This document shows, one piece after another, positions 6,916-12,411 of a stretch of DNA of 64,000 bases. The notes beneath the pieces are model-generated. The model did not search any database, was not told the origin of the DNA, and saw only the letters and a list, made by a program, of their open reading frames with translations. The DNA is from Candidatus Zhuqueibacterota bacterium (GTDB lineage Bacteria > Zhuqueibacterota > Zhuqueibacteria > Oceanimicrobiales > Oceanimicrobiaceae), in assembly GCA_029262055.1 (NCBI GenBank), contig JAJDAD010000112.1:1-64000 (forward strand), given 5' to 3'. The position numbers and the translations under genes were made by a program. How positions within the stretch are numbered: the first letter of the stretch is position 1; each line of letters starts with the position of its first letter.

Positions 6916-7136
6916 AGTGCGGCCCGGGCGCCACAGTCCTTCCCGACAACGATCTGTTCATTAGAGAGAAGAGCCCGTGCACACTCCGAAAGCCGGGCTT
7001 TGCTCTTGTTACCAACTCTCCTGTTATGGTGGTAGCCGACGCCACGTACCTGACCGAGGCCTGTTTCGTAGTCAGCATCACCAGTCCCATCTTTAATGAA
7101 CTGCGAATACCTTTCATATTGAAACTCTTGGTTTGC

Positions 7137-7343
7137 CTAGCAACAACAGTCTCCGCTTTGCATAGGCGGGCACGGGACGGTACCGTAGGAACAAAACACG
7201 CAACAGTCCCCTTTCGCCGGTTTGAGAATGGTCTTACACCTCTTGCACTTGTGAAAAAACACGCATGCATCAGTGGGCATGTCGAGCTCTTCGGTGAAGT
7301 TGCAGTGCGGACAAGTTAGCTCTGATTTTGGGATGACATCCAT
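7137..7343 (-). CDS. GDCCVxC-type small cysteine-rich putative metal-binding protein
   Basis: A 68-residue protein with eleven cysteines: a CPHC knuckle near the N-terminus, DAC, CKRC, then the block KGDCCVFCSYGTVPCPP, and the sequence ends in CCC. This matches a family annotated from its GDCCVxC block, sometimes a selenoprotein, found near mercury-resistance genes in other bacteria (recollection, not a search). A role in binding soft metals is plausible but unproven. I chose the ATG at 7343, because the family consensus begins close to SELTCPHC; the in-frame GTG at 7361 would add six residues. No mer genes are nearby. It is downstream of the sdhB terminator on the same strand, so probably separately transcribed. 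Confidence 0.75.
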   Translation of the reverse strand: MDVIPKSELTCPHCNFTEELDMPTDACVFFHKCKRCKTILKPAKGDCCVFCSYGTVPCPPMQSGDCCC

Positions 7344-7383
7344 GCTTGCGCTTTCTGTCACTAATGATTCAAATGCACACTCG

Positions 7384-7415
7384 AAAAAAAAGCCCGAGTG
7401 AATACCCGGGCTTTT
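7384..7415 (-). terminator. Rho-independent terminator of the sdh operon
   Basis: A perfect 9-bp stem, AAAAGCCCG (7388-7396) with CGGGCTTTT (7407-7415), closes a 10-base loop. On the minus strand it is followed by a run of eight T residues (7391-7384). It begins about 50 bases after the sdhB stop codon and is oriented to end transcripts of the minus-strand sdh genes. Confidence 0.85.
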
Positions 7416-7466
7416 GATACTATCCAGAAGACTATCTTTGCAAAAAACGAAGCAGTACTGCGCGTG

Positions 7467-8222
7467 TTACGCCTCAGTCAAGGCGGCCTTCATATACTCC
7501 CGTTTCATGCGCGCGATATGGGCAATGGAAATCTCTTTCGGACAGACCGCTTCGCACTCGGCATAGTTGGAACAGTCGCCAAATCCTTCGGAGTCCATCT
7601 GTTTTACCATGCCTAGGACGCGTCTCTTCCGTTCAGGTTGGCCTTGCGGGAGAACAGCCAGTTGTGAGATTTTTGCAGAAGTAAACAATGACGCGGAAGC
7701 ATTAGGGCAGGCCGCGACACAGGCGCCACAGCCGATGCAGGAAGCTGCGTCCATGGCGTCGTCTGCGACTGCTTTTGCAATCGGACTGGAATTGGCGTCG
7801 GGCGCGCCACCGGCATTCATGGAGACATAGCCGCCCGCAGCGATGATGCGGTCAAAGGCGCTGCGGTCCACGACCAGGTCCTTCAGAATCGGGAACGCTT
7901 TGGCCAGCCAGGGCTCGATGGTGACCGTATCGCCATCCTTGAAATGTCGCATGTGCAGTTGGCAAACTGCGGTGGCTTTTTGTGGTCCGTGCGCTATGCC
8001 GTTGATGACCAGGCTGCACATTCCGCAAATGCCTTCCCGGCAATCATTGTCAAACTCAACCGGATCGTCGTCATCTTTGATCAATTTCTCGTTCAGCACG
8101 TCGAGCATTTCGAGAAATGACATGTGCTGGGAGACGCCTTCAAGAGTGTAGGGCACCAGTTGACCTTTCGACTCCGCATTTTTTTGCCGCCAGACCTTCA
8201 GAAGTAGGGTCATATTTTCCAT
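7467..8222 (-). CDS. sdhB: Succinate dehydrogenase/fumarate reductase iron-sulfur subunit
   Basis: A 251-residue electron-transfer subunit of complex II. Cysteine groups for all three clusters are present in order: CREGICGMC (2Fe-2S), [12 protein letters not shown] and [12 protein letters not shown] (4Fe-4S and 3Fe-4S). It passes electrons from the SdhA flavin to quinone at the SdhC cytochrome. The start at 8222 has GGAG ten bases upstream; M4 is a possible alternative. Length and the shape of the second half (DANSSPIA...[15 protein letters not shown]) match the SdhB type that partners b558-type cytochromes. It lies 1.3 kb downstream of sdhA instead of directly after it, because a repeat array with its own gene sits in between. 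A strong terminator follows. Confidence 0.95.
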
Positions 8223-8261
8223 TCAAGTTGTCTCCATATTGAACCAGTCAACTTTCCGAGT

Positions 8262-8792
8262 TCCTAAATCAGTGACAGCTCGGTCGCTGTTGCTCAGGAT
8301 TGAATATCGAACAAGGATTAACGATTGCCGATTTCTGATTTTGATTCTTGATGCATGTGTTGAGGCGAATCTGGTCCTCCATTCTCAAATCTAAAATCGC
8401 TATTCCTTGTTCCTTAAATCAGTGGCAACTCCGTCGCTATTACTCCTGACTTGAATATCGAACAAGGATTACCGATTACCGATCCTTGATTTTGATTCTT
8501 GATGTAAGTGTTGAGGCGAATCTGGTCCTCCATTCTCAAATCTAAAATCACTATTCCTTGTTCCTTAAATCAGCGACAGCTCCGTCGCTATTACTCAGGA
8601 CTTGAATATCGAACAAGGATTAACGATTGCCGATCTCTGATTTTGATTCTTGATGTAAGCGTTGAGGCGAATCTGGTCCTCTATTCTCAAATCTAAAATC
8701 GCTATTCCTTGTTCCTTAAATCAGTGGCAGCTCCGTCGCAATTGCTCAGGACTTGAATGTCGAACAAGGATTACCGATTTTTGATTCTTGAT
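8262..8792. repeat. Direct repeats of about 150 bp, left side of array (three full units plus a partial fourth)
   Basis: The motif AAATCAG(T/C)G(A/G)CA starts units at 8266, 8416, 8567 and 8718, giving periods of 150, 151 and 151 bp. Each unit reads AAATCAGTGGCAGCTCCGTC, then GACTTGAATATCGAACAAGG, then CGATT-TTGATTCTTGATG, GTTGAGGCGAATCTGGTCCT, CTCAAATCTAAAATCGCTA and TTCCTTGTTCC. The units differ from one another at only a few positions. The fourth is cut after its CTTGATGC block at about 8792, where the four-helix-bundle gene takes over. Its stop codon and last residues lie inside this partial unit. No spacers are present, so it is not a CRISPR. Confidence 0.9.
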
Positions 8793-9163
8793 GCGACTCT
8801 TGAAGTGCTCATGTTCTTTTGGGCGGTCTCTACGCTTTTTACAAATATTGATATCAGTTCATCGCTCTCTTTGATGGCTTTACGCACGTTGCTTTCGGAT
8901 TTGAAGAGACTGGTTCTAAGAATAATTTCCAGGCAGACCAGCGTTTCCCTTAGCTCTTTCAATACAACTTTCAATTTGTGAATAAAGTCTCTTCTGGACT
9001 CTCCGCTCTGTGCTTCTCCATAATTCAAGGACGCAGAGGTGCCGGAACGAATCAATTGGCCAGCCAGGTGACTCCCGGCTTTGGAACTCGGCATCTCATT
9101 CGTAATCTCGATTATCAATACCGAAAAATCAATCAAACGTTCTTCAAGGTCAAATCTGTTCAT
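8771..9163 (-). CDS. Four-helix-bundle protein, S23/23S rRNA intervening-sequence family
   Basis: A 130-residue, mostly helical, charged protein. The pattern RFDLEERLIDFSVLIIEI, then AGSHLAGQLIRSGTSASLNYGEAQSGESRRDFIHKL and KELRETLVCLEIILR, is the recognisable core of the four-helix-bundle family (S23 protein), whose genes occur inside intervening sequences of 23S rRNA in some spirochaetes and leptospires and elsewhere in genomes. No enzymatic function is known. The start is an ATG with a very strong AGGAGGTGAG ribosome site. The gene sits within one unit of the direct repeats: its upstream region (about 9170-9215) matches the right half of a unit and its last five codons (RIKNR, then TAA) are made of left-half repeat sequence. 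It reads in the same direction as the sdh genes around it. Confidence 0.9.
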   Translation of the reverse strand: MNRFDLEERLIDFSVLIIEITNEMPSSKAGSHLAGQLIRSGTSASLNYGEAQSGESRRDFIHKLKVVLKELRETLVCLEIILRTSLFKSESNVRKAIKESDELISIFVKSVETAQKNMSTSRVASRIKNR

Positions 9164-9169
9164 CCCTTC

Positions 9170-9505
9170 TCACCTCCTCCTCTTCTCACATCGAAAATCA
9201 CCAACCCTTGTTCCTAAATCAGTGGCAGCTCAGTCGCTGTTGCTAAAGACTTGAACATCGAACAGCGACTAACGATTAGCGATTTCTGACCTTCTTCTTG
9301 ATGTCGAGTTTGTTCTTCTATTCTCCAATCCAAAGTCGTTATTCCTTGTTCCTAAATCAGTGGCAGCTCAATCGCTGTTGCTAAAGACTTGAATATCGAA
9401 CAAGGATTGACGATTTTCGATTTCTGATTTTGTTCTTGATGTAAGTGTTGAGGCATAGGGTTCATCAATTCTCAAATCTAAAATCTTTATTCCTTGTTCC
9501 TACAT
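9170..9505. repeat. Direct repeats, right side of array (right half-unit plus two units)
   Basis: After the four-helix-bundle gene, 9183-9213 repeats the end of a unit in diverged form (TTCTCACATCGAAAATCACC, then CCTTGTTCC). Two further units begin at 9216 and 9354 (period 138 bp, shorter by deletion in the middle), ending at about 9500 with TTCCTTGTTCC. The second retains GTAAGTGTTGAGGC. These right-hand units share AGCTCAGTCGCTGTTGCTAA/ AGCTCAATCGC variants that separate them from the left-hand group, so the two sides have diverged or arose separately. The array ends about 30 bp before the sdhA stop codon. Confidence 0.85.
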
Positions 9506-9537
9506 CATCGTCTTTTTTCTTACTGCACGCTTCCGAC

Positions 9538-11451
9538 TCACTTGTAGCTTCTCTGCGTCAGCTTGACATTTTCGAAGCTCAGCTCCTCTTTGTTGAGCTT
9601 TGGCTCTTTGTCCTGTCCGGTATACTCCCAGGCCGCTACGTAAGTAAAGTCATCATCGTTCCGTTTTGCCTCGCCTTCCTCTGTCTGAGACTCCTCACGA
9701 AAATGTCCGCCGCAAGATTCGTTGCGATGCAGTGCATCCTTGGCCATCAGTTCCGACAACTCGAAGTAATCGGCGACCCGGCCGGCAAACTCCAGATTCT
9801 TATTGAGTTGGCTTTGGTCGCCCGGGATCCGCAGATCCTGCCAAAACTGCTCGCGCAGCGCTCTGATCTCATCCACGACTTTGGTGAGGCCGGCCTTGTT
9901 GCGCGCCATGCCGACATGTTCCCACACAAGCAAACCAAGCTCACGGTGAAACTCAGTCACGCTCTTGCCGCCGTTGATACTTAACAATTCTTCAAGTCTG
10001 GCAGTAACTTCCTGCTCTGTTTGTTTGAATTCGGCATCGTCCGCCGTGGTGCCGTTTTGGTCGCTGCCGGCCAGGTAATCGCCAATGGTGTAGGGCACGA
10101 CAAAGTAACCGTCCGCCAGACCCTGCATCAAAGCGCTGGCGCCCAGCCGGTTTGCGCCGTGGTCGGAGAAATTGGCTTCGCCGAGTACGAACAGTCCGGG
10201 CACCGTACTCATGAGATTGTAATCCACCCAGAGTCCGCCCATGGTATAGTGCACGGCAGGGTAGATGCGCATCGGCACTTTGTACGGGTTCTCGCCGGTG
10301 ATGCGTTCGTACATATCGAACAGGTTGCCGTATTTGTCACGAATAGTGTCTTCACCGAGGCGCTGGATAGCATCGGCAAAATCGAGGTAGACCGCCAGGC
10401 CGGTATCGCCGACACCACGTCCTTCATCGCAGACTGCCTTGGCATTACGGGAAGCAACGTCGCGTGGGACTAAATTGCCAAAACTCGGGTAGCGCCGCTC
10501 CAGATAGTAGTCGCGTTCATCCTCGGGAATCTGATCGGGACTACGGTTGTCGCCTTTAGTTTTCGGAACCCAAACACGACCGTCGTTGCGCAAGCTTTCA
10601 CTCATCAAAGTGAGTTTGGACTGATAGTCTCCGGAAACCGGGATGCAGGTTGGATGGATCTGCGTGTAGCACGGATTTGCAAAAAAGGCGCCGCGTTTAT
10701 GGCAGCGCCAGGCTGCGGTGGCATTGGAGTTTTTTGCGTTGGTGGAAAGGTAGAAAACGTTGCCATAACCACCAGTGGCCAGGACCACGGCGTCAGCGGC
10801 CCACGATTTGATTTCACCATTGACCAGGTTGCGCGTGACAATGCCGCGCGCGTGCCCGTTTTGCACGACGAGGTCAAGCATTTCGTGACGTGCAAACAAC
10901 CGGACTTTGCCGGTTTCCACCTGGCGCATCAACGAGCTGTAGGCACCGAGCAAAAGCTGTTGCCCGGTCTGCCCGCGAGCATAGAATGTCCGCGATACCT
11001 GCGCACCGCCAAAGGAGCGGTTGTCCAGCAAGCCGCCGTACTCGCGCGCAAAAGGCACACCCTGGGCCACGCACTGGTCGATAATGTTGTTGCTGACCTG
11101 GGCAAGGCGATAGACATTTGCCTCTCTGGACCGATAGTCGCCGCCCTTGACCGTGTCGTAAAACAAGCGCCAGATACTGTCGCCGTCATTTGGATAATTC
11201 TTGGCGGCATTGATTCCACCCTGCGCCGCGATGCTGTGTGCGCGCCGGGGCGAGTCTTGAATACAGAAGTTGATCACGTTGTAGCCTAACTCAGCCAGTG
11301 AGGCTGCAGCAGCGCCGCCTCCCAAACCAGTGCCGACAACGATGACGGTGTACTTGCGCTTGTTTGCCGGATTGACCAGCTTGAGTTTAAATCTGTGATT
11401 ATCCCATTTGTCTTGAATTGGGCCGTCGGGTACTTTAGCATCAAGAGTCAT
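9538..11451 (-). CDS. sdhA: Succinate dehydrogenase/fumarate reductase flavoprotein subunit
   Basis: A 637-residue flavoprotein that oxidises succinate to fumarate (or the reverse). The FAD-binding [17 protein letters not shown] stretch lies at about residues 40-56; [11 protein letters not shown] provides H72, the residue that carries FAD covalently in the family. Downstream are the active-site regions [19 protein letters not shown] and [14 protein letters not shown], and the capping sequences of complex II flavoproteins. The length and sequence resemble the group that pairs with a single b558 cytochrome and is used with menaquinone. The ATG follows GGAGCATGACAG and lies three bases after the sdhC stop, so the two are coupled. 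Downstream, a repeat array separates it from sdhB. Confidence 0.96.
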
Positions 11452-11454
11452 CTG

Positions 11455-12135
11455 TCATGCTCCAGTGAAATAGATCCAAAGTGGAATGCCGATAAATCCT
11501 GCCGCCATTACTACTGCCAGAATGATGCCGGTGGTATAAATGATCGGAGTGTAGCGCGGATGATTAATCCCAAGTGATTGGAACGCGCTCCAGAAACCAT
11601 GCCGCAAGTGAAACCCAAGTAATAGCAGGGTGATCACATACCAGGCGACATAACCCGGACTCTGAAACACTTCCATCACCAGGCGATGCAGATCGCGCAC
11701 GTGGGTACCGTCGATGGTGGAGGTATAATGCGGGCCGTACTTAAAAGTCTTTAGATGCACGACGATAAATGCAAAGGTCAACAGGCCTGTAAAAATCATG
11801 GTTGTCGACGCGAATGATTTTCTGCTAGGTCCGCCCGCGCTCACCGATTTGCTGTACGACTGCGGACGCGCCTTTTGCTTGCCCGTGGCCACCGAAATGC
11901 CCGAAAAAACGTGAGACAGCAGAATAGCGATCAACCCCATCTCTGCGACAATCAGAATGTCACCAAAGCTCAGTAAGAAATCAGCATATTTGTTGTAGGG
12001 GTCCGGATTTTTGCTGTAGAGCAACAGGTTTCCGGACAAATGCTCTATCAGAAAAATCACCATTGCCAGCCCGGTAAGGGCCATGAGGATCTTTTTCCCG
12101 ACAGAACTCTTAACAATCTCAGAAAATCGCAGCAT
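11455..12135 (-). CDS. sdhC: Succinate dehydrogenase cytochrome b558 subunit
   Basis: A 226-residue membrane subunit with five hydrophobic helices that anchors SdhAB and passes electrons to quinone. It matches the b558 family (one polypeptide carrying two haems, no SdhD). Histidines suitable as haem ligands lie in the helices: HLSGNLLLYS, HVFSG, HLKTFKYGPH and HLRHGFW. I chose the ATG at 12135, preceded by GGAG at a good distance, over the TTG at 12165. It is the first gene of the sdhC-sdhA-sdhB operon. The 246-bp gap upstream separates it from a histidine kinase gene on the same strand and should contain the operon promoter; no clear promoter match was seen. Confidence 0.93.
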   Translation of the reverse strand: MLRFSEIVKSSVGKKILMALTGLAMVIFLIEHLSGNLLLYSKNPDPYNKYADFLLSFGDILIVAEMGLIAILLSHVFSGISVATGKQKARPQSYSKSVSAGGPSRKSFASTTMIFTGLLTFAFIVVHLKTFKYGPHYTSTIDGTHVRDLHRLVMEVFQSPGYVAWYVITLLLLGFHLRHGFWSAFQSLGINHPRYTPIIYTTGIILAVVMAAGFIGIPLWIYFTGA

Positions 12136-12411
12136 CGCAGACTCCGGAAAGAGGTGAGATTCCAATTTCGTAAAGAACGGGAGAGATGAAGCCAGACTTA
12201 TTCTTCTGGGCTGAATATACCATAGTGATTAAGAAAAAGCAACAAATGCAGTCCGGAAAATCCTGGAAAACACGTCTATTTTTACCTGGTACAGGCTTTC
12301 TTGCACAAGCATTTTGCGTGAGCTGATTTGAAATTTATACTCGTGCTTCTGAGCCGTTCTTGATTCACTCCACCAGATGTCAGGTTTCCCCGGGGGTTCC
12401 GGCCAGCAAGA

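Follow-up and report, generated by a model that had tools for sequence, protein, structure and literature searches.

Intervening sequences (IVSs) that carry an S23p open reading frame (ORF) occur in the 23S rRNA of Leptospira, Coxiella, and other bacteria. Cyanobacteria have intergenic degenerate 7-bp tandem repeats known as STRR sequences. To our knowledge, the S23/IVP protein family has solved structures and no known function. The rRNA IVS of Coxiella has terminal inverted repeats with the S23p ORF in the loop, is excised by RNase III, and has tandem GACAGAT heptamers just upstream of that ORF (PMC4990558). MacGregor described TAACTGA heptamers in Beggiatoaceae, Cyanobacteria, and Bacteroidetes, which are intergenic and scattered over unrelated bacteria, and for which "no mechanism is evident" (PMC4679880). 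The text of that report contains neither "intervening sequence" nor "four helix" and says nothing of inverted pairs flanking a four-helix-bundle (4HB) gene.

We analyzed a 64,000-nucleotide stretch (the window) of contig JAJDAD010000112.1 from a Candidatus Zhuqueibacterota bacterium (GCA_029262055.1). NCBIfam profiles identified an sdh operon on the minus strand. Its order is sdhC (b558 family; 11455..12165; TIGR02046, 170.5 bits), sdhA (9538..11451; NF005749, 1186 bits), an insert of 1315 bp (8223..9537), and sdhB (7467..8222; NF005746, 424 bits). The insert contains six repeat units, one of which holds a 4HB gene. A prior inspection of the letters alone (the sequence-only reading) had placed six units of 138 to 151 bp in the sdhA-sdhB gap, with the 4HB gene reading in the same direction as the sdh genes. 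Both statements held: all of these genes are on the minus strand, and the repeat spacings bear out the units, the gene-bearing one being ~499 bp long with its gene. Direct-repeat families between 8254 and 9507 had five to six copies, with start spacings of 150, 151, 151, 498/499, 138, and 148. TRF gave 8260-8779 a score of 865 with a period of 151, and it found no second tandem array in the 64-kb window.

All six units read on the minus strand. Unit 1 (9352..9499) is a gene-less hairpin with arms at 9467-9499 and 9398-9430. Unit 2 (9214..9351) is also gene-less and is diverged, with one arm at 9327-9351 and a decayed partner arm. Unit 3 (8715..9213) bears the gene between a left arm at 9190-9213 and a right arm at 8762-8786. 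Units 4 (8564..8714), 5 (8413..8563), and 6 (8262..8412) are gene-less, and unit 6 ends 39 bp before sdhB. These last three are ~91 to 92% identical to one another in a perfect 151-bp register. The tandem arrangement at the sdh locus is best attributed to local duplication, given the ~92% identity between neighboring units. The units have a hairpin form (GAACAAGGA... / ...TCCTTGTTC), with a left arm GGAACAAGGAATAGCGATTTTAGATTTGAGAA, a right arm ATCAAAATCAGAGATCGGCAATCGTTAATCCTTGTTC, and a loop of ~30 bases when the gene is missing. For four units, the sense-strand RNA folds were better than those of shuffled sequences (z of -2.9 to -4.7).

The 4HB gene (8771..9163, minus strand) encodes 130 aa. 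Its product belongs to the S23/IVP family, as first proposed, because it scored above both curated cut-offs (75.9 bits against 24 for TIGR02436 and 50.4 bits against 33.8 for PF05635). The best PDB match was 2rld (E of 4.7e-29). The protein matched four-helix family models only, with no nuclease or transposase model among them; PADLOC defence models gave nothing at E 0.01, and PHROGs gave no match. Compared with the gene of its nearest relative (L160), pS was 0.84, with synonymous differences saturated, and pN was 0.15. This indicates purifying selection on the protein. The gene had been described as splitting one unit. It does lie inside unit 3, but the split is not random: the gene fills the hairpin loop on the sense strand, between complementary terminal arms, with a strong Shine-Dalgarno sequence (GGAGGAGGTGAG) ahead of it in the loop. 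Its last codons and stop (8771-8773) are inside the right arm.

This anatomy is known from rRNA, and the location outside rRNA is what differs here. Like a 23S rRNA IVS, unit 3 has a stem of inverted terminal repeats with an ORF of the same family in the loop, in the sense orientation, and as in the Coxiella IVS, heptamer repeats lie beside that ORF. Unlike one, the sdh insert is in a protein-coding operon and not in a 23S rRNA helix: there was no rRNA match in 7000-10600, and the insert sits between sdhA and sdhB. It also differs in being an array with gene-less copies, in having long degenerate heptads as arms, and in encoding a protein maintained by purifying selection instead of one in decay. 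Rfam had no match above gathering score, only chance-level ones, in the insert and in a second array locus of the host genome on contig C44. The Avd proteins of diversity-generating retroelements (DGRs) are in the same broad four-helix family (PF05635). However, the sdh locus has no reverse transcriptase or template repeat; its neighbors are sdhA and sdhB, and its only repeats are those of the array. Elsewhere in the host genome, two weak PF05635 matches (L003, G000:C67:23162-23461; L004, G000:C2:106490-106792) are probably Avd genes because they adjoin FGE-sulfatase-like variable regions. BLASTP aligned the window protein with L004 over 16 residues only.

We compared 13 relatives in which a single contig carries both sdhA and sdhB; three belong to the family of the host, and all are from outside its genus. 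In these, the gap between the two genes is -4 to about 60 bp and contains no repeat. Therefore, the array was inserted in the host lineage. No clear target duplication was seen at the sdh insert, and the corresponding junctions of the relatives did not align with it. Upstream of a ferritin gene, the host genome has three further gene-less units (C44:36737-37236, 73 to 77% identity), and stray half-arms occur on C57, C101, and C106. The sequence-only reading had proposed looking for dispersed copies and for an empty site in sister strains; dispersed copies exist, and empty sites exist in relatives from other genera. So do other four-helix genes nested in arrays: two of them (L120 and L129), in two other genomes, lie within arrays of about 100- to 127-bp units. 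The pattern that reading had reserved for local duplication, with the same array in all close relatives and nowhere else in the genome, was not what we found.

Some other observations concern arms in and beyond the host genome. Its best PF05635 gene (L001, G000:C103:26803-27117) is flanked by apparent RND-type efflux genes; its arms are inverted ACGTGAG-type heptads, a different word from that of the window. Solitary arms (GAACAAGGATCAACGATT) occur at gene ends without a visible partner in genome G107 (L326 to L329), and the solo arms on C101 and C106 of the host resemble them.

The 4HB family is present in 59 of 69 sampled genomes of the host phylum. We looked for arms by reverse-complementing the 350 bp downstream of each gene and aligning them with the 350 bp upstream, counting scores of at least 30. 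The genes were taken irrespective of rRNA or non-rRNA location, and the phylum set comprised 106 distinct 4HB genes (108 before two duplicates were removed). Inverted flanks were found at 67 of the 106, compared with 1.8/108 (~2) expected from mismatched pairs and 0/110 for control ORFs (0/71 from the subfamily loci below and 0/39 from the window). About one-third of the 4HB genes had no detectable arms. A contig scan with the subfamily of the window gene yielded 80 loci, mostly from Bacteroidota; other hosts included Ignavibacteria, Neomarinimicrobiota, Armatimonadota, Planctomycetes, Nitrospirae, Desulfobacterales, Balneolaceae, KSB1, and more. Here, 51/74 loci had inverted arms, with a mismatched-pair expectation that rose to 15/74 because words are common to different hosts. 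The core AACAAGGA was present in 49/148 near flanks but only 3/136 far flanks in this set (Fisher, 7e-13). Altogether, arms and gene were associated at about 110 loci over the two sets (~180 relatives compared).

The arms are degenerate 7- to 8-bp tandem repeats, and the word is particular to each gene (GCTGGAT, ATCAGTN, CCAATAT, and GGTCATT are examples). Autocorrelation of flanks less than 250 bp from the gene peaked at lags of 7, 14, and 21 (0.06, 0.05, and 0.03 to 0.04), whereas there was no peak at lag 7 or 14 more than 600 bp from the gene or in coding sequence. Tandem repeats in a respiratory operon, the focus of the sequence-only reading, are real at sdh but too narrow a description. 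Judged from these comparisons, the association of gene and inverted arms is a general property of 4HB family loci. The arms resemble the published intergenic heptamer repeats in being degenerate, 7-bp, tandem, intergenic, and scattered among phyla. One phylum gene (L115) has ATCAGTN arms, near the complement of TAACTGA; the TAACTGA report differs in describing no inverted pairs around a 4HB gene. We found no published general link between 4HB genes and heptads in the literature searched, which lay outside subscription journals and preprints, and the novelty of the association is not certain. Separately, many 4HB genes appeared to lie close to a contig end, at a distance of a few hundred bases, as would be expected if flanking repeats break assemblies.

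Arm words track the protein. Between different genomes of the phylum set, similarity in arm 6-mers correlated with protein identity (Mantel r of 0.287), compared with a null maximum of 0.099 in 2000 permutations and 0.097 for arms in flipped orientation. The signal came mostly from pairs with >50% protein identity, which points to shared inheritance of arm and gene and not to a readable code. The proteins most similar to that of the window are L160 (74%), L129 (55%), and L120 (54%), all from other families of the phylum. They have the same AACAAGGA word as the window, and few other 4HB genes do. That the window and L160 kept this core word despite saturated synonymous sites argues for selection or exchange.

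Taken together, we consider it probable (about 0.68) that the array is an IVS-type mobile stem-loop element residing outside rRNA, with its cognate 4HB protein, that was amplified in tandem in the sdh operon. Counting against this reading are the 4HB genes with no detectable arms, the failure to find a mobilizing enzyme, and the null result on G-U mismatches and the stable lepA-folD insertion described below. A full element would consist of a left arm of degenerate 7-bp repeats, a Shine-Dalgarno sequence, the 4HB gene, and a right arm reverse-complementary to the left one. Units without the gene would be deletion derivatives that retain the arms. In NaphS2, a gene-less unit (L318) matches both ends of a full element (L319; 80% and 91%) minus 316 bp of gene and is clearly an internal-deletion derivative by this alignment. 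For the window, the case is suggestive only: the gene-less loop, as seen in unit 4, is similar in sequence to the 5'-terminal part of the 4HB gene, and 2 of 2000 shuffles scored as well.

A related gene-less family in a Bacteroidia metagenome-assembled genome (G106) bears on how such units move. It has 69 dispersed pattern matches, and copies share common ends with a terminal inverted repeat (TIR; GWGTYTGTC) and are mostly 130 to 215 bp long. Of 29 copies with both ends recognized, 15 were flanked by an exact 6-bp target site duplication (TSD; TANNTA), compared with a mean of 3.5 and a maximum of 10 in 20000 shuffles. The element boundary was placed by eye; a boundary one base off gave zero exact duplications, and at the chosen boundary a scan of duplication lengths had a sharp peak at 6. 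These duplications indicate DNA insertion. The TIR motif was also found near arms in genome G108. No such ends were visible around the 4HB gene of the gene-bearing G106 copy, and neither TIR nor TSD was established for gene-bearing copies or for the window. Three candidate spans for an autonomous transposon with the G106 TIR had no transposase-like ORF by eye, and no mobilizing enzyme was found. In G106, L341, and L342, a second hairpin (ACTCACAA...GTGAGATCGCTTCGCTAAGTTAACG) lies inside the arms at the same spot in several copies and appears to be a nested hairpin element.

These TIRs and duplications could mean that the units are DNA miniature elements (MITEs) whose mobility depends on an unrelated transposase and in which the 4HB gene is a mere passenger. 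As in MITE and REP/RAYT arrays, gene-less palindromic copies derive from or are related to a gene-bearing unit; the window protein, unlike the enzymes of those systems, is a four-helix bundle and not a transposase, and its lack of any nuclease or transposase match would suit a passenger. We think this unlikely because arm words track the 4HB subfamily between genomes, the TIR is not visible around 4HB copies, and a pure passenger should not recur with so many arm pairs that differ in sequence.

We also compared orientations. At subfamily loci, the upstream neighbor was co-directional with the 4HB gene in 66/70 cases (66:4), versus 147/206 (147:59) for controls (p of 2.7e-5). The downstream neighbor was co-directional in 63/74, versus 147/206 adjacent control pairs (p of 0.02). 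This bias fits a gene that lives on a host transcript, and it could arise if elements insert in sense or if antisense copies are lost. Mismatches in the arms showed no bias between G-U and A-C on the sense strand in either set (87:76 and 61:57). Therefore, the sequence is silent on whether the hairpin acts as RNA, and pairing at the RNA level is unsupported. The earlier proposal that the units are IVS-like elements tolerated in a transcript is partly supported: it fits the stem-loop with its ORF in the loop, the sense orientation, the empty site in 13 relatives, the copies elsewhere, and the same layout in two other genomes. The idea of processed RNA spacers does not fare as well, given the null G-U result and the TSDs of the G106 family.

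Sense-oriented hairpins within the operon transcript, folds better than those of shuffles, and purifying selection on the protein might also be read as a host-selected RNA device, in which hairpins are RNase III sites or stabilizers that set the sdhA:sdhB ratio and the 4HB protein is a hairpin-binding regulator. We rate this as rather improbable: the 13 relatives have no array in their sdh operons, elements also adjoin unrelated genes (ferritin, efflux, lepA-folD, and carbamoyltransferase genes), and there is no G-U asymmetry. The lepA-folD case was seen in four cultivable Algoriphagus and Litoribacter species (L185, L193, L216, and L231), where a 4HB gene occupies a shared position flanked by apparent lepA and folD genes, so the insertion is stable there. 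Local duplication alone, an intergenic repeat grown by slippage with the 4HB gene present by chance, would suit the register of units 4 to 6 and the slippage-prone nature of heptads (literature cited in PMC4679880), but it is ruled out as a sole cause by the empty sites in relatives and by copies bearing the same words that are dispersed through the host genome and other phyla, as well as by the association at about 110 loci, and we give it hardly any weight.

Under the mobile stem-loop reading, one or more units would have entered the sdhA-sdhB junction and then multiplied by duplicating in tandem. The host transcript would supply the 4HB protein, which, judging from its solved relatives, is presumably pentameric. 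Its most likely ligands are the arms belonging to its own subfamily, either as DNA or as an RNA hairpin, and its likely role is in the spread or maintenance of the element, gene-less copies included. Such copies would be mobilized in trans, and a mobilizing enzyme is presumed. The hairpins in sdh mRNA are probably tolerated, and by analogy with rRNA IVSs they might be cut by RNase III. More tentatively, and at somewhat below even odds, S23/IVP genes with inverted heptad arms may form one widespread, previously unrecognized class of mobile element, with its own 7-base word per subfamily. The rRNA IVSs would then be a special case resident in rRNA, and many orphan heptamer repeats would be gene-less remains. 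If true, this would tie together the origin of rRNA IVSs, the scattered heptamer repeats of bacteria, and the likeness of DGR Avd to S23. The matched pair of protein and arm offers a direct, testable guess at the ligand of the very common S23/IVP family.
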